Shown here: one piece after another, positions 1-13,356 of the stretch
Position numbering within the stretch: position 1 is the stretch's first letter
Layout of the letters: each line of letters starts with the position of its first letter
From: Hyphomicrobium sp.
GTDB lineage: Bacteria > Pseudomonadota > Alphaproteobacteria > Rhizobiales > Hyphomicrobiaceae
Assembly: GCA_013141015.1 (NCBI GenBank)
Contig: JABFRT010000036.1
Coordinates: forward strand, 62,001 to 126,000
Direction: 5' to 3'
DNA length: 64,000 bases
Made by a program: the position numbers and the translations under genes
The notes under the pieces: model-generated
Database searches by the model: none
Seen by the model: only the letters and a program-made list of their open reading frames with translations
What the model was told of the DNA's origin: nothing

Positions 1-880
1 GATCTTGATCGAAGCGCAAAAGCGCGGACATGATATTTTCTATTACACGCCACAAAACTTGGCGCTTCATGGCGACAAGCTGCTGGCGCGCGGCCACACG
101 CTGACAGTAAATGACAAGTACGGCGATCACTACGCACTCTCCAATCCGCGCGTTGAGGACCTCGGGACCCGCGATTGCGTGCTGCTGCGCCAAGACCCGC
201 CGTTTGATATGGCCTACATCACCACCACGCATTTGCTGGAACGCATTCATCCGGAAACGCTGGTCGTCAATGATCCGATGCATGTGCGCAATGCGCCGGA
301 AAAACTGTTCGTGCTTGATTTTCTAGATCTGATGCCGCCGACGCTGGTCACGCGACAGCTTGACGACGTGATCGCGTTCCGTGCGCAATATAAGGATATC
401 ATCGTCAAGCCGCTGTACGGCAACGGCGGCGCAGCTGTGTTCCGCATCCGCCCGGAAGACAGCAATTTGTCGGCGCTTGTTGAGATGTTCCAGACGGTCT
501 TCCGTGAGCCATTCATGATCCAGGAATATCGCCCCGAAGTGACGGCAGGCGACAAGCGCATCATCCTTGTCGATGGCGAGATTGCGGGTGCCATCAATCG
601 CGTGCCGCAAGAGGGTGAAACGCGCTCGAACCTGCATGTTGGCGGCACAGCGGCTAAGATCGAATTGACCGCGCGCGATCGCGAAATCTGCGAACGCTTA
701 AAGCCGGAATTGAAGCAGCGCGGCCTGCTGTTCACCGGGATTGACGTGATCGGGCCCTACCTCACCGAAATCAATGTCACGTCGCCAACCGGCATCCGCC
801 AGGTCAAAGCGTTCGGCGGCAACGATATCGCCGCGATGATCTGGGACGCGATTGAAGGGAAAGTCAGCCGGGCCGCTTGA
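1..880 (+). CDS. gshB: Glutathione synthetase (5'-truncated by window edge)
   Basis: Catalyses ATP-dependent ligation of gamma-glutamylcysteine and glycine, the last step of glutathione synthesis, in the cytosol. The reading frame is open to the left edge. The TTG at 5 is an internal Leu (context [15 protein letters not shown]), so roughly 25 N-terminal residues lie outside the window. Visible family features are the N-terminal domain with the [10 protein letters not shown] stretch, the ATP-grasp region ([23 protein letters not shown]) and the C-terminal metal and substrate region ([20 protein letters not shown]). The frame is intact to a TGA at 880. In related genomes comM follows directly; here an accessory element intervenes. 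Confidence 0.93.
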
Positions 881-1325
881 TTTCAAACGCTGCTGGCACG
901 CGGCCGCCTAAAGATGAGCCACGCGGTATGGCGCGTGTTGAACAAAGGTCAATTCGAAGAGGCGGCGGACAGCCATTTCTTGATGACGCGGCCGGAATCT
1001 CTGACAATCGCAAACACGATTTCAAATAGGACATCGAGTGCTGCTGGGCCAACACTCACATCGCGCCGCGACCGGTAAGGTGTCTGAACATTTCTCAGCA
1101 TCGGCAGCTCACCCCGCACGCGACTACTGAACCAGCGTCATTGAACAATGCTCACCGGCCGGGCCGTCTTTCCAGACGATCTGATTAAATGTTGAGCACG
1201 GTGCACGCAAAGTTGTCCACAAAATTGTTGAATGCAGAACACTGCTTTCTCACGGAGAGGCGGGCGGCAGGCGAGCCGTCCAATACAAATAGTAGCACGC
1301 CTCGCGTTCCATATTTGTTCTTGAC
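881..1325. other. Intergenic region between gshB and the IS1595-type element; no gene seen
   Basis: About 445 bp with no ORF that looks protein-coding; the short ORFs on both strands have no recognisable composition or start signals. With 4648-4684 it makes up the original gshB-comM spacer before the element inserted. Confidence 0.5.
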
Positions 1326-1343
1326 TAAGCCACGGGATATTAT
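1315..1343 (+). promoter_or_regulatory. Possible hybrid promoter spanning the element boundary
   Basis: TTGTTC (1315-1320, in flanking chromosomal DNA) and TATTAT (1338-1343, in the inverted repeat) are 17 bp apart and lie about 40 bp upstream of the first inward gene. If used, the -35 would be captured from the target. This is weak, pattern-only evidence. Confidence 0.3.
1326..1333. repeat. Target site duplication, left copy (TAAGCCAC)
   Basis: Identical 8-mer at 4640-4647. The match extends to 11 bp (CTAAGCCACGG) because the adjacent element and target bases happen to agree. Confidence 0.75.
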
Positions 1344-1357
1344 ACTTCCCAAACCCA
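1334..1357 (+). repeat. Left terminal inverted repeat of the IS1595-type element
   Basis: Pairs with 4614-4639. The shared core is GATATTATACTT, one variable base, then CCAAACCCA. It contains TATTAT at 1338-1343, which could act as a -10 box for the inward-facing HEPN-like gene. Confidence 0.8.
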
Positions 1358-1384
1358 AGAATCGTGTATGGGGAGGTCTAGCAA

Positions 1385-2281
1385 ATGAATGAGCTAGCGC
1401 CATGCCCGTCGCAGCCATGTCAGCCGATACCAAGCGGGCTAGTGAGCCTGTGGGATATGCTGGAATTTTGTGCCAACGATTTCATTGATGTTTTGAAAAC
1501 GCTTCAAAGCGTTGAAACGTTGGTTGATCACAAGGTTGGTGGCGACCCAAATAGATTAATTCCAAATGAATCTATGGCGTTTGTTAACGAAAATCTTGGG
1601 CTGCTTAGGGCCCAGTGCAATGAGCTTGGAGCTGTAATATCTGCCGATTTTGTTGGCGACGCACTAATGGCAGTGGAGCGCGGGTCTTGCACTTGGGAGG
1701 AGTTCGCACGGCGTACAAAACTGATCTATGAAGTCTTGCGCAAGGAGCTTGGCAGATCACTCCTGTTTTCAGTGTCGTCTGACAAACTTAGTTATTTCAA
1801 TGATGCCATGTTTAAATTTGATCCAGACGCATATTTCGCGTTTGAATCATGTGGTGATGACATTGATGAGGCAGGGAAGTGCTTTGCCTTAGGCCGATAC
1901 ACTGCTTGCGTGTTTCACCTAATGCGAGTGTTGGAGCGGCCCATAATCAGCTTGGCAAAAATATTGCTCCCAGACGATCCAGTTCCCAACTGGGGTACAG
2001 TTTTGAACAAGATCGACACAGAACTAAAAAAGAAGCCTTCAGAACGATCATTCAAAGGTGATGTTCAGTTTTTCTCAGAGGTAGCCGCTGAAATGAGGTC
2101 CGTGCAGCACGCGTGGCGCAACCGCGTAATGCACATTGACCAGCTCATAACTGAGGAACGAGCAAAGTCGATATTCGATGCAACGATCGGCTTTATGAAT
2201 GCTGTTTCGAAGAAGATCGACGAGAACGGCCTGATTGATCCGAACCTTTCGCTAGATCTCGAAACGCCCCCTCAACCTTAG
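1385..2281 (+). CDS. HEPN-like protein, passenger of the IS1595-type element
   Basis: 298 residues, not assigned to a named family from sequence alone. The C-terminal third is helical and carries R245-N-R-V-M-H250, which fits the R-x4-6-H signature of HEPN ribonuclease domains. A helical stretch at about 160-190 (GKCFALGRYTACVFHLMRVLE) resembles the first helices of such domains. HEPN proteins are common as toxins and in anti-phage systems, so RNA cleavage or an RNA/nucleotide-binding role is inferred, not shown. The start is supported by GGGGAGG 8 nt upstream of ATG 1385. Base composition is clearly lower in GC than the flanking chromosome, consistent with transfer. The 3' end overlaps the convergent 60-residue gene by 89 bp. 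Confidence 0.7.
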   Translation: MNELAPCPSQPCQPIPSGLVSLWDMLEFCANDFIDVLKTLQSVETLVDHKVGGDPNRLIPNESMAFVNENLGLLRAQCNELGAVISADFVGDALMAVERGSCTWEEFARRTKLIYEVLRKELGRSLLFSVSSDKLSYFNDAMFKFDPDAYFAFESCGDDIDEAGKCFALGRYTACVFHLMRVLERPIISLAKILLPDDPVPNWGTVLNKIDTELKKKPSERSFKGDVQFFSEVAAEMRSVQHAWRNRVMHIDQLITEERAKSIFDATIGFMNAVSKKIDENGLIDPNLSLDLETPPQP

Positions 2282-2375
2282 AGGTATTTTCACTGACCCC
2301 AAGCTCTTTCGCGGCTTCCTGAAACCGTTTGAACTGCTCTTTAGGGTCTAGCTCTGGGGTTTTCTTCTTGGGCAT
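2193..2375 (-). CDS. Small conserved-type protein, 60 residues
   Basis: The encoded peptide begins MPKKKTPELDPKEQFKRF and continues with an amphipathic helix (EAAKELGVSEN...VEGAFRDLAK) before a Ser/Arg-rich tail. It resembles short orphan proteins often seen scattered in rhizobial accessory DNA, but I cannot name a function. The open frame extends upstream to 2579, but that part would be translated from DNA occupied by the neighbouring 41-residue gene and looks noncoding, so the Met at 2375 is preferred. It overlaps the 3' end of the HEPN-like gene in antisense, which might couple their expression. Confidence 0.5.
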   Translation of the reverse strand: MPKKKTPELDPKEQFKRFQEAAKELGVSENTSKVEGAFRDLAKGSDQSGRSRRSSSKQHS

Positions 2376-2554
2376 TCCGACCGATCCTATGTTCAAATCA
2401 GATCGCCTATATACCACGCAAACACGCCAGCCACCCAAGCTGATTTGCTGGATGACTGGCGCTGGTAGGCTGGCAACTGGATCAAAATTGGGAAGATCGC
2501 TGCACCCGTAAAATCTCACGCTTTGGATGCGTGAAGCTTGCGGCCGGCAACCCA

Positions 2555-2680
2555 TCACAGCCCAAATATCAGGTAGCAAACGGCCATAACGGCTAGGAAC
2601 ACGAAGAATGCCCCAAGCGAGTTACGCCAGTTTGGGGGATCGCCGCCGTAGTCAGGGGATTTTTCGTAGCCTGATGGCAT
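2555..2680 (-). CDS. 41-residue single-pass membrane peptide
   Basis: The frame reads MPSGYEKSPDYGGDPPNW, then RNSLGAFFVFLAVMAVCYL and IFGL. The N-terminus is short and hydrophilic and is followed by one strongly hydrophobic segment (about residues 20-41), so it is probably an inner-membrane peptide. Its ATG (2680-2678) overlaps the TGA of the ribbon-helix-helix gene as TGATG, the usual arrangement for translational coupling. Function unknown. A small membrane peptide coupled to a DNA-binding regulator recalls toxin-antitoxin layouts, but the order and family are not diagnostic. Confidence 0.6.
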   Translation of the reverse strand: MPSGYEKSPDYGGDPPNWRNSLGAFFVFLAVMAVCYLIFGL

Positions 2681-2865
2681 CAGTCGTCGTCTTCCTTGGC
2701 GTGGCGCAATTCAATGACTTTATCTGCGGCTAACCGCTTCAAGTGATCAAGTAATAAGGCACGGGCAACATCAGCGCGGTTCGTCCCGTAAACGCTGCCA
2801 ATCAGATCGTCGATCATTGATAGTGCAGCGGCTGGTAGTCTGAGTGTGAGAACTTCTTTTGCCAT
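2680..2865 (-). CDS. Ribbon-helix-helix (CopG/Arc-like) DNA-binding protein
   Basis: 61 residues. Residues 4-10 (EVLTLRL) fit the N-terminal beta ribbon, about 12-27 helix A, and about 28-48 (TNRADVARALLLDHLKRLAA) helix B. The tail is acidic (KEDDD). Such proteins act as dimeric repressors, often autoregulating small operons. Directly upstream (2870-2898) are three copies of a 7-bp box, a plausible operator. It is followed by the 41-residue membrane peptide with a TGATG overlap, so the two form a micro-operon. Confidence 0.75.
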   Translation of the reverse strand: MAKEVLTLRLPAAALSMIDDLIGSVYGTNRADVARALLLDHLKRLAADKVIELRHAKEDDD

Positions 2866-2869
2866 GGAC

Positions 2870-2898
2870 AGACTCTAATTAGACTCTTGTCAGAGTCT
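2870..2898. promoter_or_regulatory. Triple 7-bp box, candidate operator of the RHH regulator
   Basis: AGACTCT at 2870-2876, AGACTCT again at 2881-2887 (direct, 11-bp period) and AGAGTCT at 2892-2898 (inverted, 4-bp spacer, again an 11-bp step). The boxes begin 5 bp upstream of the regulator's start codon. Spacing of about one helical turn is what cooperative ribbon-helix-helix dimers typically bind. Confidence 0.6.
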
Positions 2899-2920
2899 GC
2901 AAATCAGAGCATCTATTGCA

Positions 2921-2952
2921 ATAGAAAAGCCGCCACCCTTTCGGATGGCGGC
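2921..2952 (-). terminator. Rho-independent terminator of the 39-residue gene
   Basis: The stem is GCCGCCACCC (2929-2938) with GGATGGCGGC (2943-2952), one mismatch, loop TTTC. On the minus strand it is followed by TTTTCTATTG. It lies between the 39-residue gene and the RHH promoter, insulating them. Confidence 0.65.
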
Positions 2953-2978
2953 CCAAGTCAGACAAGCTCCTCGCGGGA

Positions 2979-3098
2979 TTACTTGTCCTTCTTAATGGTC
3001 TCGATCACCGTCGTTGTAGGACGGGAAATCGCGACCTTGACCGGAACGAACTGGCCAGTAATGGCGCTGCGTCCGATCTTCATCGTCGACTTAGCCAT
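2979..3098 (-). CDS. 39-residue basic peptide, conserved-type
   Basis: The frame reads MAKSTMKIGRSAITGQFVPV, then KVAISRPTTTVIETIKKDK and TAA. AAAGGAG lies 7 nt upstream of the ATG and a terminator lies 27 bp beyond the stop, so this is a complete transcription unit despite its size. It resembles short proteins with a GRSAxTGxFV...RPxTTVxETIKK pattern found in many alphaproteobacterial genomes and phages. I know no function for them. Confidence 0.65.
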   Translation of the reverse strand: MAKSTMKIGRSAITGQFVPVKVAISRPTTTVIETIKKDK

Positions 3099-3317
3099 GG
3101 GAATACTCCTTTTGGCTTTCGAGCAGATGAGCCGCCCTCTCCGAAACAACATCACGCTGCCTCGCCCGTACCAAGGGCGTGCGTGGTTCAGAGTGCGACC
3201 GGCGCAAGATGGGGCGATTCGGTTAACAACACCAAGACCGAATTTAAGCCCGGCGCTGCCAGTACCCCTTCCGCTGCTTCGAAACCCTGATAGTCTGAAT
3301 ACAGACGGGGGTGGGTC

Positions 3318-3578
3318 ATGCGTATCGCGTTTGCAGTGGTGGCATTGTTTTTATTCGCTGCGCCGGTATCGGCTCAGTTTTGTAGCGGGTGTGGATGCCG
3401 TGGCGGTCCCGGATGGCGTCACAATGACAGCGGCAAGTGCATGGCCCATGCGGAATGGATGGGGCGTTGCGGAAACCCGCCGACAACCAAATGCACTTGC
3501 GAACATAGTTCCTGCCGGTACGTGCCGGTTGTCGTGCATGATAAGCCCGCGCAAATGAAAATAACGCCGCTCAAGTAG
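3318..3578 (+). CDS. Small secreted cysteine-rich protein
   Basis: 86 residues. Residues 1-19 form a signal peptide (basic start, FAVVALFLFAAPVS, AQ cleavage site). The mature part has eight cysteines, including CSGCGC and KCTC, and a GGPGWR motif, suggesting a disulfide-bonded periplasmic or secreted protein. Function unknown. The stop codon lies in the loop of a perfect hairpin that probably terminates transcription. It is carried inside the IS1595-type element. Confidence 0.6.
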   Translation: MRIAFAVVALFLFAAPVSAQFCSGCGCRGGPGWRHNDSGKCMAHAEWMGRCGNPPTTKCTCEHSSCRYVPVVVHDKPAQMKITPLK

Positions 3579-3592
3579 AGCGGCGCTTTCGT
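3565..3592 (+). terminator. Terminator overlapping the stop codon of the Cys-rich gene
   Basis: CGCCGCTC (3565-3572) and GAGCGGCG (3578-3585) form a perfect 8-bp stem with loop AAGTA, followed by a T-rich tail (CTTTCGTTTC). The TAG at 3576-3578 lies partly in the loop. Confidence 0.6.
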
Positions 3593-3619
3593 TTCTTCTG
3601 ACGTTCCTCAACCGCTGGA

Positions 3620-4576
3620 TCAGGCCCTATCAGTCGTTCGATAGGTCAACCGCTTGCCTTGTGCACCCTTGATCATCTTAGCGGCGCGTTCTTCGTCTGA
3701 GACGCCAAGGCGGACCCGGTTGTTATACCGGAAGTCAAATTCCGCCAGATAGCGGTGCAGGTGCTTTTCCTTGCAGTGCTGGTAGGTGCCGCGCATCCCG
3801 CGCTTGAACAGTGAGAAATAGCCTTCGACGGTGTTGGTGTGGACGGTCTTGGTCGGCTCATAGCGGACGTATTCAGCAATCGAGTGGTCAACCCGGTCAT
3901 GTCCTGCGAAGTGGCCAAGCTGCTTTTTGTAGAGCATGGCGCTGTCGGTCATGATGAAGGTTTCCTTGCGAATGTTCTGGTTCACAAGGGGGATGACTTC
4001 ACCAACGGTGCTGCCTGCTACATGGAAGCTGCGAACACCGCCGTCGCGCTGAACCAGCGAGACAATGACGTTCTTGTGCTGTGAGTTTCTGAAACCCTTG
4101 CCGTCTGCGCGGCCCTTAGGGTGGGTTGAAGCGCGGCCAAAGATGGTTTCGTCAACTTCGACGGTCTGGCCTTCGCCGCCCATCGGGGGAACCAGCGAGC
4201 CGGTGCGCATGGCTTCACGAATGCGGTGCCCCATGAACCAAGCGGTCTTGAGGGTCACGCCCAAGGTGCGGTGGAGCTGGTTGGCGCTGATGCCCTTCTT
4301 GCTGCCCGCGATCAAATAGAAGGCCTGGAGCCACAGATAGAGCGGTACGTGGCTTGAAGCAAAAATGGTCCCGACAGTGACGCGGAACTGCTTCCGGCAG
4401 GCGTAGCACTTGTAGAGGCCGAAACGGGTGGCGTTGCCCTTCATCTTGGACACGCGCTCTTTTTCGAAGCAGTGGGGGCACTGTGCACCATGTGGCCAAA
4501 TATGTTGCTCAACCCACTTGTAAGCGGCAGCTTCGTTCTGTAAATGTTCTTGGGAAATGAGGCTAAGATGGGCCAT
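3620..4576 (-). CDS. IS1595-family transposase
   Basis: 318 residues, intact. An N-terminal C2C2 zinc ribbon (CPHC...CYAC, about residues 35-62) is followed by the helix-turn-helix-like region (GISANQLHRTLGVTLKTAW) and the ISXO2-type catalytic domain with DETIFGR, an internal MTDSA, and HTNTVEGYFSLFKRGMRGTY near the end. It mobilises the surrounding 1334-4639 element. The start ATG lies within the stem of a hairpin whose loop holds the ribosome binding site (4574-4600), suggesting translational throttling. Confidence 0.95.
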   Translation of the reverse strand: MAHLSLISQEHLQNEAAAYKWVEQHIWPHGAQCPHCFEKERVSKMKGNATRFGLYKCYACRKQFRVTVGTIFASSHVPLYLWLQAFYLIAGSKKGISANQLHRTLGVTLKTAWFMGHRIREAMRTGSLVPPMGGEGQTVEVDETIFGRASTHPKGRADGKGFRNSQHKNVIVSLVQRDGGVRSFHVAGSTVGEVIPLVNQNIRKETFIMTDSAMLYKKQLGHFAGHDRVDHSIAEYVRYEPTKTVHTNTVEGYFSLFKRGMRGTYQHCKEKHLHRYLAEFDFRYNNRVRLGVSDEERAAKMIKGAQGKRLTYRTTDRA

Positions 4577-4600
4577 TGGAATCTCCTAATGATTCCAATG
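4574..4600 (-). promoter_or_regulatory. Hairpin sequestering the transposase start codon and ribosome binding site
   Basis: CATTGGAATC (4574-4583) and GATTCCAATG (4591-4600) are perfect 10-bp inverted repeats. On the transposase mRNA the 7-nt loop (ATTAGGA) plus the first stem base supplies AGGAG, and the start AUG is at the base of the 3' arm. Folding would hide the start, as seen for other IS elements that limit transposase translation. Confidence 0.6.
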
Positions 4601-4613
4601 TAGTGCAATCGGG

Positions 4614-4639
4614 TGGGTTTGGCAAGTATAATATCACCC
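4614..4639 (-). repeat. Right terminal inverted repeat of the IS1595-type element
   Basis: Reverse complement matches 1334-1357 (22-bp core, one mismatch). It also contains a TATTATACT block that could serve as a -10 for the transposase. Confidence 0.8.
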
Positions 4640-4647
4640 TAAGCCAC
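4640..4647. repeat. Target site duplication, right copy (TAAGCCAC)
   Basis: Direct repeat of 1326-1333. It ends 37 bp upstream of the comM start codon. Confidence 0.75.
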
Positions 4648-4684
4648 GGCTCCGAAATAGCCTCCACGCAGTTGGAGGGGCGTC

Positions 4685-6214
4685 ATGTACGGGCAGATTT
4701 CCACGTTAGCGTTCGTTGGGGTCGAGGCCCGGCTGGTCGAAGTCCAGGTCCGCATTACGCCCGGTCAGGCGGTGTTCGCCATCGTCGGCCTGCCCGATAA
4801 GGCGGTTGCTGAAAGCCGCGAACGGGTCCGCAACGCTCTGCATGCCGTGGGTCTCGGCCTGCCCTACAAGCACATCACCGTCAATCTGGCCCCGGCCGAT
4901 CTGCCCAAAGAGGGCAGTCATTTTGACTTGGCGATAGCACTTGCGATGATGTCGGCGATGGAGGCGATTGCACCTGATGCCATTGCCGGGTTTGCAGCCA
5001 TCGGAGAGCTGGCGTTGGATGGTGCCATCCGCGCGGTGCCCGGCGCATTGCCAGCCGCCATTGGCGCAAACGCGGCAGGCAAAGGGCTGATCTGCCCGGA
5101 AGCAGGCGGGCCCGAAGCCGCGTGGGCCGGTGAGCACATCGATATCCTGGCCGCGCCCCATCTGCTGTCGCTGGTCAATCACTTCAAGGGTCTTCAAACT
5201 CTGTCGCGGCCAAAGCCGAACATCGCGGCACCAACCGGCTTGCTGCCGGATCTGCGCGACATCAAAGGCCAGGAGACGGCCAAGCGGGTTTTGGAGATCG
5301 CAGCCGCCGGTGGCCATAACCTGCTGATGGTCGGCCCGCCGGGGTCCGGCAAATCGATGCTTGCCGCGCGGCTGCCGTCGATCCTGCCGCCGCTGGCGCC
5401 GGAAGAAATTCTCGAAGTCTCGATGGTGCATTCGCTGGCCGGCGAATTGATGGGCGGCAAGCTGACTGTCGAGCGCCCGTTCCGCGCGCCGCATCATTCG
5501 GCCAGCATGGCGGCGCTGGTCGGCGGTGGATCGCGGCCACGGCCGGGTGAAGTGTCGCTCGCTCATCTTGGTGTGCTGTTTCTTGACGAGCTGCCGGAGT
5601 TCCAGCCGAACGTGCTCGACGCGTTGCGTCAGCCGCTGGAAAGTGGCGAAATGATTATCGCGCGCGCGCAGCATCGCATTTCGTATCCGTCGCGCATTCA
5701 GCTGGTCGCCGCCATGAATCCGTGCAAGTGCGGAGGGTCCTCGCCCGGCCAATCGTGCCGCCGCGGCCCGCGCTGTGCCGACGATTATCAAGCGCGCGTC
5801 TCAGGTCCGCTGCTCGACCGGATCGACCTGCAGATCGAAGTGCCGGCTGTGTCCGCCGCTGATCTGGTGTTGGCGCCGCCGCGCGAAGGCAGCGCCGAGG
5901 TTCGCGCCCGGGTAATCGCTGCACGGGACCGCCAGCGCGCCCGCTTCTTGAACCTCGGTGTCAAAGGTGTCCGCACCAATGCCGAGGTGTCCGGTCAATT
6001 GCTTGAGCAGACCGCCATGCCGGATGATGCGGGCATCGCGCTGCTGCGGCAGGCGGCGGAAGCTCTATCGCTGTCGGCGCGCGGGTTCCATCGCACGCTG
6101 AAAGTCGCGCGCACGCTTGCCGATCTCGACGGGCTCGATCAGGTCGGGCGCATCCACATCGCTGAGGCTCTCAGTTACCGCGCCGAAACGCTGCGCCAGA
6201 GCCGTGCGGCGTAG
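4685..6214 (+). CDS. comM: YifB/ComM-family Mg-chelatase-like AAA+ ATPase
   Basis: 509 residues, the usual family length. An N-terminal Lon-protease-like domain (GLPDKAVAESRERVRNAL, about 35-55) precedes a Mg-chelatase-type AAA+ module with Walker A GPPGSGKS (about 216-223), Walker B (VLFLDELPEF) and a C-terminal Mg_chelatase_C domain. ComM is a hexameric helicase that promotes branch migration during natural transformation. GGAGG precedes the ATG. The IS1595-type element ends only about 45 bp upstream, so comM's native promoter may have been displaced. Confidence 0.95.
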   Translation: MYGQISTLAFVGVEARLVEVQVRITPGQAVFAIVGLPDKAVAESRERVRNALHAVGLGLPYKHITVNLAPADLPKEGSHFDLAIALAMMSAMEAIAPDAIAGFAAIGELALDGAIRAVPGALPAAIGANAAGKGLICPEAGGPEAAWAGEHIDILAAPHLLSLVNHFKGLQTLSRPKPNIAAPTGLLPDLRDIKGQETAKRVLEIAAAGGHNLLMVGPPGSGKSMLAARLPSILPPLAPEEILEVSMVHSLAGELMGGKLTVERPFRAPHHSASMAALVGGGSRPRPGEVSLAHLGVLFLDELPEFQPNVLDALRQPLESGEMIIARAQHRISYPSRIQLVAAMNPCKCGGSSPGQSCRRGPRCADDYQARVSGPLLDRIDLQIEVPAVSAADLVLAPPREGSAEVRARVIAARDRQRARFLNLGVKGVRTNAEVSGQLLEQTAMPDDAGIALLRQAAEALSLSARGFHRTLKVARTLADLDGLDQVGRIHIAEALSYRAETLRQSRAA

Positions 6215-6242
6215 CCGCGTCACTTCTCGCTGACAAAAAGAA

Positions 6243-6268
6243 AAGGCCGGAGTTTCCTCCGGCCTTCT
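6243..6268. terminator. Bidirectional terminator between comM and folD
   Basis: AAGGCCGGAG (6243-6252) and CTCCGGCCTT (6257-6266) form a 10-bp stem with loop TTTC, flanked by A and T tracts. It serves comM on plus and could serve folD on minus. Confidence 0.7.
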
Positions 6269-6362
6269 TAACCCGCACAGACTGCCTACCAGAGCCCGCG
6301 CGCATCACATAAGCGCTCCTCGCTCGATTTGGCCGCATCATTCAAAACAGCCAAGTAAGCGC

Positions 6363-7250
6363 TTACGCAAATACCGATTTCGCACCAATCTGCATCGCCG
6401 CCGCCTGGGCTGCATTCCGCAACAGGCAAGCGATGGTCATGGGGCCGACGCCACCCGGCACCGGCGTAATCGCACCGGCCACCTTGGCGCACTCGTCATA
6501 AGCCACGTCGCCGACGAGCTTGGTCTTGCCGTTCTCGGACGGTACGCGGTTGATACCGACGTCGATGACAATGGCGCCCGGACGGATCCAGCTGCCTTTG
6601 ACCATCTCCGGGATACCGACTGCGGCGATCACGAGATCAGCGCATTTCACAATATCCTCGATGTTCTTGGTGCGCGAGTGCGCGATTGTCACTGTGCAGT
6701 TCTCACGCAGCAGCAAGGCCGCCACCGGCTTGCCGACAATGTTGGACCGGCCAATTACAACGGCGTCCATTCCACTCAGGTTCGGCTTTACCGACTTGGC
6801 CAGGATAATCGAACCCGTTGGCGTGCACGGCACCAGCGCGCGTTCGCCAACCCACAGACGGCCGACGTTGACCGGGTGGAAGCCATCGACGTCCTTATCC
6901 GGGTGGATCGAGTTCAGCACTTTTTCCGAATTGATGTGCTTGGGCAGCGGCAACTGCACCAGGATGCCGTGGCAGGCCGCATCGTTGTTCAACTTGTTGA
7001 CGAGCGCCAGTACGTCGGCTTCGCTGGTCTCTGCTGGAAGCTTATATTCCCACGATTTCATGCCGACTTCGACGGTCTGCTGCGCCTTGTTCTTGACGTA
7101 GACTTTGCTGGCCGGGTCTTCGCCGACGAGCACAACGGCGAGGCCGGGCTTGACGCCATGTTCGGCGATCAGGCGGGCCACTTCTTTGGCCACCTCAGCG
7201 CGCACGTCGCCCGCGATTTTCTTGCCGTCGATGATCTGCGCTTCAGCCAT
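6363..7250 (-). CDS. folD: Bifunctional methylene-THF dehydrogenase / methenyl-THF cyclohydrolase
   Basis: Interconverts 5,10-methylene-, methenyl- and 10-formyl-tetrahydrofolate using NADP. Motifs seen are [22 protein letters not shown], the Rossmann [11 protein letters not shown] and the C-terminal [10 protein letters not shown]. The start is set at ATG 7250 ([13 protein letters not shown]) because GGAGGAG lies 8 nt upstream; the upstream in-frame TTG at 7268 overlaps that Shine-Dalgarno. Length 295 residues, normal. Confidence 0.96.
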
Positions 7251-7618: not shown

Positions 7619-7917
7619 GCCAAAACCTTTGCCAAGTTGGGCAGGATAACACTTTGAATGAAGAAGCAGCCGAGCAAGAGGATGATCGGCGAAATATCGA
7701 TGCCGCCCATGTTGGGCAGCATGCGGCGGATTGGCCCGAGCAGTGGCTCGGTGACGGCGTGCAAGCCCTGCCAGATCGAACGGACCATCGGGTTGTAGGA
7801 ATTGATGACACCGAAAGCCATCAACCAGCTCAAGATCACGCTGGCGATGACGACGTAAGTGTAGAGCGTGATGAGATAGCTGATGAATCCGAGGAGTTCG
7901 ATCATGGCGCCCTGCAT
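7615..7917 (-). CDS. YggT family integral membrane protein
   Basis: Up to 100 residues. Two hydrophobic segments (about 8-30 and 75-95) flank the conserved PMVRSI...[23 protein letters not shown] block typical of YggT. Members are linked to cell-division and septum organisation and osmotic tolerance, but the mechanism is unsettled. A second ATG at 7905 (MIELLGF) has AGGG just upstream and is an equally good start. It is the first gene of the YggT-DUF167 pair. Confidence 0.9.
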
Positions 7918-8101
7918 TGGCTATTGGTCCGCGCCATGTAGCCTTGTCGTGCCCATACCCGCAAGGGCCCTGCTTTACGTTGGCCGGCGGCAAGACGGAG
8001 TAAGCCCTAAGGCAGCAGCAAGGCAACCTGTCGCGAGCGCCGCTCATGCGGAGCGTCATCTGCCACGGGGGCCAACGTGCCGGAGCCCTAAGGGCGACGG
8101 C

Positions 8102-10665: not shown

Positions 10666-13356
10666 TCAGGCGGCTTTGTGTTGATTTTCTGTGGCCATCC
10701 GCAGCGCTTCGGGCAGGCTGGACACGGCAACAGGGCGGCTGAAATAGTAGCCCTGCGCTTCGTCGCATCCTGCAGCAATAACTTTGGCGAGCACATCCGG
10801 CGTCTCGATGCCTTCCGCGACGCTCGCCATGCCCAAGCTGTGCGCCAGGCTGACAATCGCCTGCACAATCGAAAAGCAATCGGGCCGCGTCGCGATATCC
10901 TTGACGAAGCACTGGTCGATTTTGATTTTATTGAAGGGAAATGCACGCAGATAACTGAGCGACGCATAGCCGGTGCCGAAGTCGTCGAGTGCAATCGACA
11001 CGCCAGCATCGCGAAGGGCGCGCAGTGCGTCGATTGTTGCGGCGTTGTCTTTCAACATAATGGTCTCGGTAACTTCGAGTTCCAACCGTGAGGCGGCGAG
11101 CCCTGCTACTTGGAGCGCCGACTTGACAGCCAACACCATGTCGGTCGATGTGAACTGCGTTGCGGCGACATTGACTGAGACCATGATGCCGTCTGGCCAT
11201 TCGGCTGCATCGCGGCAGGCTTGACGCAGCGCCCACTCTCCCATGGCGCCAATCAGGCCCATTTCCTCGGCCAGCGGAATGAATTCACCAGGAGACACCA
11301 TCCCGCGCACCGGGTGGTGCCAACGCATCAAGGCCTCGCACGACTTGATCCGCCCGGTGGTGACATCAATGATTGGCTGGTAGTGCAGCAGCAGCTGGTT
11401 TGATGCGAGCGCGCGGCGCAAGTCTGCTTCCGCCTGTTCGCGCCCGGAGATCTCGGCTTCGAGGTTGTCGTTGAACAGCACGGCATTGCCCCGGCCGCGC
11501 GATTTGGCGCGATAGAGCGCTCTATCGGCATTGCGGGTCAATTCATGAGCGGTGACACCGTGCTCCGGCGCGATCACGATGCCGATACTGACGCCGACGC
11601 TGACGATCCGGCCGTCGAGGTCGTAAGGTGCGCTGACGATGCGCAAGAGCCGCCGGGCGAGTGTTGCGGCGTCCTGGTCTTCGAAATTTGCGCCGGTGGC
11701 GATGATTGCGAATTCGTCGCCGCCCAGCCGGGCGATAAAGTCTGACTTGCGCACCGTGTCGCGCAGGCGGGCAGCTACGATCTTCAACAATGCGTCTCCG
11801 GATGGGTGTCCGAGCGTGTCGTTGACGGCTTTGAATTTGTCGAGATCGAACCACAAAACCGCAAAGCGCATACCATTGCCGAGACCCAAGAGGGCTTCTT
11901 CAAGGGTCTCCTGGAAGTAGTGGCGGTTGGCGAGACCGGTGAGCGTATCGAAATGCGCTAGTCTTGAAATTTCAGTTTCGGCCGCGAGTTTTTCGGTGAT
12001 GTCTTCATGCAGATCGACCCACCCGCCGCCTTCCAAAGGTTGCGTGTTGACCAGTGCGGTCCGGCCAGCTTCGATTTCGTGGACTTCACTGAAGGGGGCG
12101 CCGGTTGCGATCTGGGCGTGCAGTTTGATCATCCAGCTTTCAAGTTGCTGGGGCGTGACGTGGTTGGTGGCGCCGAACTTGGAGCACCAGTGTTCGGCGA
12201 TTGCTTCAAAAGACGTGCCGGGCACGCCGAGCTTCTGCGGCAGGCCGTACAATTCGAGATAGCGGTCGTTGCAGACGAGCAGCTTTCCTTGGGCGTCAAA
12301 CATCGATAGTCCGCGCGCCATGTTGTTCAAGGCGATGTGGAACCAGGTGTTGAGTTTCTCAATTTCATGCGTGTTCGAGAGCAGAGTGGCAGCGTTGCGT
12401 TTGAAAATCTCGAGTGCGCGGGCCATCTCACCGATTTCATCGCGGGCCGACGTCTCGGCGCGCACATTCGCAATTGCTGCCGCGTCGCGAAGGTCGTTCA
12501 GGGCCACGCGGCGCATGCCGCCAGCAATGCTTTTTAGCCGGAACGCTACGCCGCTGATAATCACGACGCAAATCGGCAAAACAATCAGCAGCGCGATGAT
12601 GGCAGCGGCCGTGACCCACGTCCGCAAGCGCTTGCCGCGTTTGACCAGATCTGAAATCCGCCGCTCGGTGGTGGCGATGCTCAGTTCCCGGCTTGAGCGG
12701 ACCGCGGCTTGGATGGGGTTGGCGACGCGGAAATAGGCGTTAACGGCTTCGCGGGCTTCACGCGGCGAAGCGGCTGCGGCAAAGAACAGCGCGCGGTGGC
12801 CTTCGCTGACGAACTCGCTGTGCAGTGCCCTTGCCTGATCAAGCGACGGATCGCGGGCTCGGCGCATAAGGGTGGAAATCGTCGTGGCGATATCATCGGC
12901 GACGCGCATATCGTTGTTGGCGGCAACCAAGTCTGTTTGCGCAATCGCGGATTCGACCAATTTGCGGTGGCGTTCGAGCAGCAGTTCGATGTCTGTCGCA
13001 GTCGATGACAGCGCCACGTCGCGGTCGCGGATATCGGCCACGACGCGGTTGGTGCGCTCAATGTAGAAGAGTGCGCCGAACGCCAGCACAATAACCGACC
13101 CAAGCGTCAGCGCACCGGCCCACACGAAACGGGTGGCGATGCTGCGTGGAAGCAGCCGGCTGGCCCGGTTGGCAAGCCTACGCGACATAGGCGGATGGGC
13201 CGCCGTCGCCCGGAGTCTTGGCATCGGGGGCGGCGTGTGAGGTGTCGTCATACGCATACTGCCTGTCGTCACGGTGCCCAGCGGCGGACTGGGCGGGCGG
13301 GCCGGTCTCCCGGGCGGCGAACCACTTGGGGGAGTAAATCCACAAGACGCAACCAT
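10666..13356 (-). CDS. Membrane-bound GGDEF-EAL cyclic-di-GMP signalling protein
   Basis: 896 residues if started at 13356, but the first 55-60 residues are Pro-rich and the Met at 13188 (MSRRLANRAS) may be the true start. The order is TM helix (about 78-98), periplasmic helical sensor, TM (about 250-272), HAMP, PAS-like region (about 350-460), GGDEF (active-site RLGGDEF intact, about 543) and EAL (SCEALMRW, about 673, with DDFGTGYASLSYL). Both signature motifs are intact, so synthesis, breakdown or both of c-di-GMP are possible. The second messenger governs motility and biofilm, relevant beside the adhesin-like genes that follow. Confidence 0.93.
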   Translation of the reverse strand: MVASCGFTPPSGSPPGRPARPPSPPLGTVTTGSMRMTTPHTPPPMPRLRATAAHPPMSRRLANRASRLLPRSIATRFVWAGALTLGSVIVLAFGALFYIERTNRVVADIRDRDVALSSTATDIELLLERHRKLVESAIAQTDLVAANNDMRVADDIATTISTLMRRARDPSLDQARALHSEFVSEGHRALFFAAAASPREAREAVNAYFRVANPIQAAVRSSRELSIATTERRISDLVKRGKRLRTWVTAAAIIALLIVLPICVVIISGVAFRLKSIAGGMRRVALNDLRDAAAIANVRAETSARDEIGEMARALEIFKRNAATLLSNTHEIEKLNTWFHIALNNMARGLSMFDAQGKLLVCNDRYLELYGLPQKLGVPGTSFEAIAEHWCSKFGATNHVTPQQLESWMIKLHAQIATGAPFSEVHEIEAGRTALVNTQPLEGGGWVDLHEDITEKLAAETEISRLAHFDTLTGLANRHYFQETLEEALLGLGNGMRFAVLWFDLDKFKAVNDTLGHPSGDALLKIVAARLRDTVRKSDFIARLGGDEFAIIATGANFEDQDAATLARRLLRIVSAPYDLDGRIVSVGVSIGIVIAPEHGVTAHELTRNADRALYRAKSRGRGNAVLFNDNLEAEISGREQAEADLRRALASNQLLLHYQPIIDVTTGRIKSCEALMRWHHPVRGMVSPGEFIPLAEEMGLIGAMGEWALRQACRDAAEWPDGIMVSVNVAATQFTSTDMVLAVKSALQVAGLAASRLELEVTETIMLKDNAATIDALRALRDAGVSIALDDFGTGYASLSYLRAFPFNKIKIDQCFVKDIATRPDCFSIVQAIVSLAHSLGMASVAEGIETPDVLAKVIAAGCDEAQGYYFSRPVAVSSLPEALRMATENQHKAA

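Follow-up and report, generated by a model that had tools for sequence, protein, structure and literature searches.

Members of the IS1595 family of insertion sequences (IS) that carry passenger genes are reportedly set apart as 'transporter IS' (tIS), a term said to come from Siguier, Gagnevin and Chandler in 2009, and among larger mobile elements Tn7 is known for its preferred chromosomal site. The name tIS for passenger-bearing IS appears in the available text of two later papers (PMC3129680, PMC7986276), and that of a third describes Tn7-like transposons whose varied cargo is rich in HEPN, PIN, RelA/SpoT and other defence or toxin-antitoxin (TA) genes (PMC8649781). The subject of this work is an IS1595-type element of 3,306 bp (positions 1334-4639) lying between gshB and comM in a stretch of 64,000 nucleotides from Hyphomicrobium sp. 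(contig JABFRT010000036.1, positions 62,001 to 126,000), denoted here as the window. We consider it rather probable that this element is a cargo-obligate transposon whose insertions fall next to LexA boxes and by which nuclease-type conflict genes are moved. The observations behind this proposal are the element itself, its division into backbone and cargo, the exchange of that cargo, the signature of an HEPN protein, the asymmetry of the two ends and the association with SOS (LexA) boxes.

As far as the accessible text of the cited papers goes, the element shares with tIS the transposase domains, the zinc ribbon, the 8-bp duplication, the GG-starting ends (PMC8101967) and the presence of passengers (PMC3129680, PMC7986276). 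It differs from tIS, as these are portrayed in the citing papers, in that every end-defined member carries cargo, and in having a constant small protein, two swapped slots, a -35 asymmetry and insertion at LexA boxes. The kind of cargo is shared with the Tn7-like transposons; however, the present elements measure 2-3 kb, have one transposase and usually one or two cargo genes, show no targeting genes and use as their site a regulatory motif common to many genes. In the portions available of the literature on IS1595 passengers, on their cargo, on HEPN proteins and on LexA boxes and transposons, no description was found of the small protein, the slots or the SOS-box preference of this lineage; as regards LexA boxes and transposons in particular, titles and abstract openings offered nothing on point.

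Backbone and cargo of the element

The arms of the inverted repeat (1336-1357 and 4614-4635; 22 nt, one mismatch) are 95% complementary, and the exact 8-bp duplication TAAGCCAC flanks the element at 1326-1333 and 4640-4647, which bears out a previous sequence-only reading that had claimed inverted repeats of about 22 bp and an 8-bp duplication. The extended ends are GGGATATTATACTTCCCAAACCCA on the left and, read inwards, GGGTGATATTATACTTGCCAAACCCA on the right. With up to three mismatches, the 22-nt end pattern occurs at two places only in the 3.94-Mb genome, both at the element (no extra ends), and the reversed-pattern control gave 0, so that the repeats are not due to chance. The transposase, encoded at a single place in the genome, matches DDE_Tnp_IS1595 (PF12762, 2.7e-30), Zn_ribbon_IS1595 (PF12760, 6.6e-11) and NF033547 (2.2e-53, 181 bits for a cut-off of 75). 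The element thus combines the DDE domain and N-terminal zinc ribbon of the IS1595 family with an 8-bp duplication and GG-starting inverted ends, both given as traits of the family in the available part of PMC8101967. That chance repeats happen to surround an ordinary gene cluster is hardly credible: the genome-unique end pair, the exact duplication and the same structure at dozens of loci exclude it, and nothing was found in its favour.

Besides the transposase gene, six open reading frames (ORFs) lie inside the element. One of them, encoding a small protein predicted to fold as a helical hairpin, separates two cargo slots: slot A, from the transposase gene to the hairpin gene, and slot B, from the hairpin gene to the far end. 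The features of the locus are the following:

1306..1320, plus strand: SOS (LexA) box GTTCCATATTTGTTC belonging to the comM promoter that the element interrupts; 5 nt separate it from the target duplication
1321..1326, plus strand: -35 TTGACT of the same comM promoter, whose final base is also the first of the duplication
1326..1333 and 4640..4647, plus strand: left and right copies of the 8-bp target duplication, recognised by sequence
1334..1357, plus strand: left (cargo-side) inverted repeat, with a disarmed -35-like hexamer, TTCCCA
1385..2281, plus strand: slot B cargo, 298-residue HEPN-superfamily (DUF4145-like) protein with E184 and R245-N-x3-H250, a predicted RNase
2193..2375, minus strand: backbone gene, 60-residue predicted helical hairpin, K-rich by eye, with relatives at 63 of 80 related loci
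2555..2680, minus strand: slot A, 41-residue peptide, hydrophobic over one stretch by eye; a single relative, in L005, is not inside an element
2680..2865, minus strand: slot A, 61-residue ribbon-helix-helix (RHH)-like protein, which has relatives in L004 and L006 as well as within elements of another IS1595 subgroup
2979..3098, minus strand: slot A, 39-residue basic peptide; relative within an element of another IS1595 subgroup
3318..3578, plus strand: slot A, 86-residue Cys-rich protein with a signal-peptide-like start by eye
3620..4576, minus strand: IS1595-family transposase, 318 residues, with Pfam and NCBIfam matches
4574..4600, minus strand: stem-loop with a 10-bp stem and a ribosome-binding site in the loop, ending in the transposase start codon
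4597..4625, minus strand: promoter-like site of the transposase gene, TTGCCA-17-TACATT, its -35 within the inverted repeat
4614..4639, minus strand: right (transposase-side) inverted repeat, recognised by the end pattern
4658..4663, plus strand: -10 TAGCCT of the comM promoter split by the insertion; once the flanks are joined, 17 nt separate it from the -35, by comparison with relatives

The hairpin and HEPN genes overlap tail to tail by 89 nt. The G+C content of the element (52.8%) and of its HEPN gene (47.6%) is below that of the whole window (59.8%). The label RHH is that of the sequence-only reading; the best library match of the 61-residue protein is to a repressor, PHROG 4738 (E 0.15). 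A search for promoter-like sites in 1280-4720 returned one, for 2.4 in shuffles, a count that in itself proves nothing, and Rfam gave no credible structured RNA in window positions 1-6500. An SOS-like match at 4535, within the transposase gene, was discarded, as similar matches fall at scattered positions inside 8 of 58 relatives.

Ends of the same type, together with related genes, were indeed encountered at many other loci, where the earlier reading had suggested looking for them. The sample consists of the best 80 of 125 loci confirmed in a contig scan, and curation left 57 elements with usable ends, 54 of them with the exact duplication that the search required. Automatic ends were doubtful in L015, L017, L019, L023, L036 and L065 and were set by hand in L023, L036 and L019; L019 is excluded from end and length counts, and L055 has ends without an exact duplication. 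The hosts are mostly Alphaproteobacteria, with a few records titled Gamma- or Betaproteobacteria, Syntrophaceae or Marinimicrobia, and phage records gave two distant transposase matches. All 57 elements hold cargo and exceed a bare IS in length (1,862-6,232 bp, median 2,508), so the notion that many passengers make the window element exceptional is not supported. Likewise, in the description of an IS1595 element with six non-transposition genes, the element, the HEPN-like gene and the passengers stand, whereas the ORF at 2193-2375 belongs to the backbone. Judged by length, slot B alone is occupied in 24 of 48 elements, slot A alone in 9 and both in 15, as they are in the window.

The distinction between backbone and cargo is apparent from the way in which their genes are inherited. 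The 59 rows classified by cargo comprise HEPN (17), DUF3800 (14), GmrSD (3) and others (25), labels that the author of the analysis assigned from protein clusters and Pfam (L056 by cluster alone; L001 and L009 also hold a DUF3800-cluster gene). On the transposase tree these classes change 24 times, for a mean of 28.4 when shuffled (as low in 6 of 200) and a possible minimum of 3, and at least eight changes for HEPN are forced by the starred branches. When 17 close pairs were compared as DNA, homology extended into the hairpin gene in 11 and the far-end block returned in 9, the intervening cargo being unlike. Cargo has therefore been repeatedly exchanged between elements.

The hairpin gene is present in 50 of the 57 elements (48 in the length table, plus L016 and L067), and the seven without it form one clade (support 100/98). 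Its distances correlate with those of the transposase (Mantel r 0.26, p 0.002, n 50). Within 15 HEPN elements, L009 and L067 being left out, the value is 0.30 (p 0.008), and it is 0.14 (p 0.14) for hairpin and HEPN and 0.07 (p 0.32) for transposase and HEPN. The hairpin gene is thus a backbone gene that follows the transposase rather than the cargo. In genomes sampled regardless of the transposase, it was detected in 13 of 121 for the order and in 22 of 385 for the class, counting the genome of the window. Of the other places, 10 of 12 in the order and 18 of 25 in the class have an IS1595 transposase no more than 1.5 kb away; several are elements already among the 80, and the profile was built from IS1595 neighbours. 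No fitting Pfam model was found for 61 members (best E 0.012), a PDB sequence search with both profiles gave no match, and the structure model has a pLDDT of 72 and a pTM of 0.34. The idea that the gene serves as a special DNA site was rejected: it looks like ordinary coding sequence because of its synonymous differences (118 of 344, for 1210 of 2928 in the transposase; Fisher p 0.013, the pairs not being independent). Locus L016 has two hairpin genes (7852-8013 and 11215-11394), one inside the element and the other about 2.3 kb past its end.

The backbone consists of two 26-bp ends, a transposase gene at one end with its -35 inside the inverted repeat, and the hairpin protein, which most likely would aid or restrain transposition or target choice. 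Slots A and B house the genes exchanged between elements, slot B being read inwards from the far end.

The same data bear on the suggestion that the window carries a mobile defence or addiction package. TA operons are not known for a convergent layout such as that of the HEPN and hairpin genes, and an addiction module with an HEPN toxin and the hairpin or RHH protein as antitoxin appears improbable. The hairpin protein co-varies with the transposase and is found next to cargo of unrelated kinds, RHH homologues occur at 2 of 80 loci and HEPN at 21 of 80, and a conserved cognate small partner, as type II TA systems have, is not apparent. PADLOC models, moreover, gave 0 matches to the seven element proteins of the window at E <= 1. 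What speaks for a module is that HEPN and PIN toxins are documented as transposon cargo in the available text of PMC8649781, that five other elements pair a PIN or PIN-like gene with a partner gene in slot A, and that an RHH gene precedes the hairpin gene in L004 and L006.

A role in the control of the element, in which the cargo nuclease and the hairpin protein would regulate the transposon (copy number, exclusion of related elements), is just as doubtful. It would suit the single copy in the genome and the HEPN and hairpin transcripts, which are antisense because the genes overlap tail to tail, as well as a stem-loop that 11 of 50 elements have immediately ahead of the start of the transposase gene. 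However, the cargo is too diverse for a single regulatory role, and HEPN relatives exist on plasmids without the transposase. The 11 stem-loops, which include that at 4574-4600 in the window, each reach p <= 0.05 against mononucleotide shuffles; 9 of the 11 have ribosome-binding-like letters in or at the loop, and their stem sequences differ.

A Pfam survey of 41 clustered and 31 single cargo proteins returned DUF3800 (11 and 3), HNH (4), GmrSD_N (3), PIN (3), PIN_10 (2), DUF433 (2) and DNA methylase (2), with single occurrences of RelA/SpoT, AccI, Eco57I, MT-A70, Mrr_cat and KilA-N; DUF3800 has an RNase-H fold according to the accessible part of PMC10910872. We propose that the lineage may transport nuclease-type genes for defence or for conflict between mobile elements. 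Neutral hitch-hiking, with a backbone that takes any captured gene and a cargo without a selected role, seems quite unlikely, although slot A of the window is a patchwork that includes a host-type Cys-rich gene and several cargo genes have no known domain. Against it, a few nuclease-type families recur across transposase lineages, the Rx4H motif is kept in 16 of 16 HEPN proteins, and three genomes in which the comM site lost the transposase or never had it still hold HEPN or DUF3800 relatives there. The Cys-rich gene (3318-3578) is probably a host-family gene captured by the element: it is found in 11 of 59 other genomes of the family, with a transposase within 1.5 kb at none of the places checked (9 of 13). 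The window gene set is a patchwork because some passengers occur elsewhere without matching ends, an outcome that the sequence-only reading would have taken as refuting it and that holds for the Cys-rich gene and distant plasmid HEPN genes; HEPN places at E <= 1e-40, in turn, adjoin IS1595 transposases in 7 of 9 cases.

Some further arrangements of cargo were noted. Both L025 and L050 combine an HEPN gene in slot B with a GmrSD-type one in slot A, and DUF3800 genes occupy slot A in L074, L080, L048 and L005, overlapping the hairpin gene head to head in L074 and L080. A structured RNA linked to DUF3800, of which PMC10910872 makes mention, was discarded, since Rfam detects nothing but tRNAs in 11 of the 14 DUF3800-labelled loci. 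Relatives of the window's RHH gene (within L212 3485-8249 and L213 3719-6738) and of its 39-residue gene (within L212 8361-11618) are also present in elements of other IS1595 subgroups, whose duplications are exact but whose ends are different.

The two ends of the elements were compared in 54 cases, 4 of 58 having failed a core filter. They mismatch at 3.9% per site at ten core positions and at 51% at the third and fourth -35 bases, TTGAC being found on the transposase side in 37 and on the far side in 9. The ends differ in 31 of 38 elements with a large convergent gene and in 4 of 16 without one (Fisher p 1.3e-4), and are identical in L014 and L039, which have a small far-end gene. Thus, the far-end -35 is usually disarmed while the rest of the end is kept and, because of this, little expression of the cargo is expected without the aid of a promoter nearby. 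The far-end gene of L014 and L039 is a conserved one of 101-113 residues without a family match.

The HEPN protein of slot B

The slot B protein of the window is predicted, from its sequence and a structure model, to be a DUF4145-like HEPN protein and an RNase. Among 17 members, A174, H178 and R181 are invariant and position 184 is E or D in all; R245 and H250, and with them the Rx4H motif, are found in all 16 full-length relatives. In the model (pLDDT 78, pTM 0.58) helices span 154-168, 172-194, 221-248 and 257-280, with an extra short one at 203-216; the motif would lie at the end of helix 221-248, before the last helix, and E184 in helix 172-194. This layout is close to that given in the available text of PMC3710099, whose DUF4145-like branch shares with the window protein an Rx4H with N after R, an acidic residue in the preceding helix and a motif at a helix end; unlike that branch, the window protein has no Pfam match at E <= 1 and has an extra helical N-terminal half of about 150 residues. 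The protein thus displays what is expected of the superfamily, namely Rx4-6H, the R being followed by a polar residue, at the end of the penultimate helix, an acidic helix-2 residue and profile homology. As regards the latter, Pfam made contact with HEPN for 2 of 17 members (best 0.0012) and with DUF4145 for 2 of 17 (0.037), whereas hhalign aligned the RNxxxH with the family motif of eight DUF4145 domains (P 2e-4) and gave P 0.0024 (probability 12%) for six Pfam-HEPN domains, for 0.097-0.74 in five unrelated families and two reversed controls.

In the class sample, HEPN is present in 16 of 385 genomes, at 18 places. Seven of the nine others at E <= 1e-40 have an IS1595 transposase within 1.5 kb, one of them, in G329, being of distant type and without detectable ends; of the remaining two, one is a copy at a contig edge with a hairpin gene next to it, and the other is one part of a split gene, the second part of which adjoins a transposase. 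Distant relatives occur in five plasmid records. In G171 (C1, about 4274886-4276947; L133, L142), the two parts of a split HEPN cargo gene lie about 1.3 kb apart.

LexA boxes beside the insertions

The association with SOS boxes, absent from the earlier reading of this DNA, was found for 10 of 56 elements. The test covered 58 elements (57 plus the window) minus two with short flanks, and searched either strand within 40 nt of the duplication for an exact GTTCN7GTTC, which we take to be the alphaproteobacterial LexA site. Shuffled flanks gave 0.07 for the 10 observed, and one-mismatch boxes numbered 5 for 1.75 in shuffles. With real DNA as control and the window excluded, 10 boxes (in 9 elements, as L044 has one on each side) fell in 6.2 kb of near flank and 19 in 477 kb of far flank, a density from which 0.25 would be expected (p 1.8e-13); element interiors held 8 in 155 kb. 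In a motif-free search for 4+4 gapped dyads, which omitted L002, L003 and L005 as comM repeats, GTTC-7-GTTC came joint first with TTTGTTCT (7 each, for a shuffle maximum of 3-4). A target-site preference is therefore seen at the sequence level, as an excess of LexA-type boxes limited to these 10 elements.

The distances to the duplication are 2, 3, 4, 4, 4, 5, 6, 6, 11 and 12 nt, and by best match five boxes lie on the far side and five on the transposase side. The neighbouring genes are comM at the window, L002 and L005, and, in the opposite orientation, at L003; comM also adjoins L038. The gene recA stands beside L069 (exact box) and 130 nt from L040 (one mismatch), and a PA0069 radical SAM gene at L044. 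One-mismatch boxes also occur at L022, beside a ComEC-like gene and with a lexA-like gene about 4 kb on, at L052, near lysS, and at L048, near a type I restriction gene. No target gene was recognised at L001, L041, L054 and L061.

Two accounts of this pattern have to be weighed. In the first, the element would land at 2-6 nt from a LexA box, with no fixed side or orientation, and the simplest account of this would be that LexA, the box DNA or a promoter complex guides the transposase. Minimal transposons would then home on LexA-bound SOS operators, with the host repressor or its site as a beacon, and their constant transposase and hairpin protein would seed exchangeable nuclease, toxin or restriction genes through the damage regulon, a proposal that we put forward as possible but tentative. 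In the second, there would be no targeting: insertion would be wide and those at SOS promoters would be retained by selection, being harmless or placing cargo under SOS control. The box is on the cargo side in the window, L002, L005, L044 and L054, and the cargo's own -35 is often disarmed, both of which suit selection; however, boxes fall equally on both sides, so that there is no constant coupling of box and cargo, 8 of 10 boxes are within 2-6 nt, closer than selection at promoters demands, and both orientations are found at comM. Retention by selection thus appears unlikely, if less so than the other alternatives considered.

Several results weigh against the proposal of a cargo-obligate, LexA-box-associated carrier of nuclease-type genes. 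An exact box within 40 nt is missing from as many as 46 of the 56 elements, so that either other targets are used, boxes have decayed or the targeting is partial. A further set, which overlaps in part with the first (14 rows counting repeats, transposase-side flanks only), has an exact box at one of 11 distinct flanks (L132/L146, 4 nt from the expected duplication position). Selection for insertions at SOS promoters could mimic targeting, and the comM copies may in part descend from one insertion. When relatedness is respected, the link between differing ends and a convergent gene comes down to 7 pairs (on average 3.9 for and 0.0 against, median p 0.125, not significant). The cargo includes genes that are not nuclease-like (a proteasome-like protein, a ClpP-like protease, nested IS21 genes) and others with no known domain, for instance in L022, L024, L042 and L014. 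As for the HEPN protein of the window, it belongs to no PADLOC, Pfam (E <= 1) or NCBIfam family, its hhalign probability to DUF4145 is just 47%, and Foldseek gave no match in the PDB at E <= 0.001 (best E 0.11; a Csx1-Crn2 chain ranks fourth, E 0.23). Finally, seven weaker HEPN places in the class have no convincing transposase, and no IS1595 is annotated within 3 kb in three plasmids opened, whose gene tables are incomplete and one of which has IS3 and an unspecified transposase.

The interrupted comM promoter

The comM gene is also a recurrent insertion site of the AbaR islands of Acinetobacter, which use other transposition genes and lie inside the gene, whereas here it is the promoter beside the SOS box that is hit. 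As judged from the sequence, the insertion has detached comM from its SOS box and -35. In 15 relatives with gshB and the comM start in one stretch, the gap between both genes is 82-1,182 bp, and GTTC-N7-GTTC precedes comM in 12 of the 15. The earlier expectation of empty gshB-comM sites with a single TAAGCCAC was realised in part: gaps without an element exist (a related transposase was undetectable in all 29 gshB/comM stretches), but TAAGCCAC occurs in none of the 15. These scored gaps are short ones only, as they had to fit 1.5-kb flanks, and nine further genomes of the genus were fetched at longer range to correct this bias. An IS1595 transposase lies just upstream of comM in four of the nine (G010, G002, G007 and G008; the first two are the L002 and L005 elements again), with the box on the gshB side, 2.6-4.3 kb from comM, as in the window. 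Neither a transposase nor a cargo relative is found in the gaps of G005 and G019. Altogether, the 18 scored genomes of the genus, that of the window excluded, comprise 4 with a transposase, 3 with a cargo relative only, 2 with neither and 9 with a short gap without transposase, cargo relatives having been looked for in the refetched genomes and not in those 9.

Locus L003, where the element at comM is in the opposite orientation, and L038, from another assembly (comM 67% identical), where a transposase without detectable element ends is directly upstream of comM, indicate together with these four genomes that the comM site was hit more than once. Cargo seemingly outlives the element, as HEPN or DUF3800-type genes without a transposase remain beside comM in L219 (G014), L223 (G001) and L226 (G016), with the box just upstream of comM; the HEPN protein of G016 is 54% identical to that of the window, and the G014 gap retains one end-like sequence. 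The right end of the window element contains an outward TATAAT at 4627-4632, from which comM might be transcribed in place of its lost SOS promoter.

Locally, the insertion uncouples comM from its SOS box and -35. If the proposal is true, a transposon that selects sites bound by a global stress repressor would represent a novel mode of target choice, joining mobile elements to the SOS response, and conflict genes at comM, recA and other SOS promoters may become linked to induction of that response. Among the cargo there are many small nuclease-type genes, easy to clone and located outside classical defence islands, and the hairpin protein emerges as a new candidate factor for transposition or targeting.

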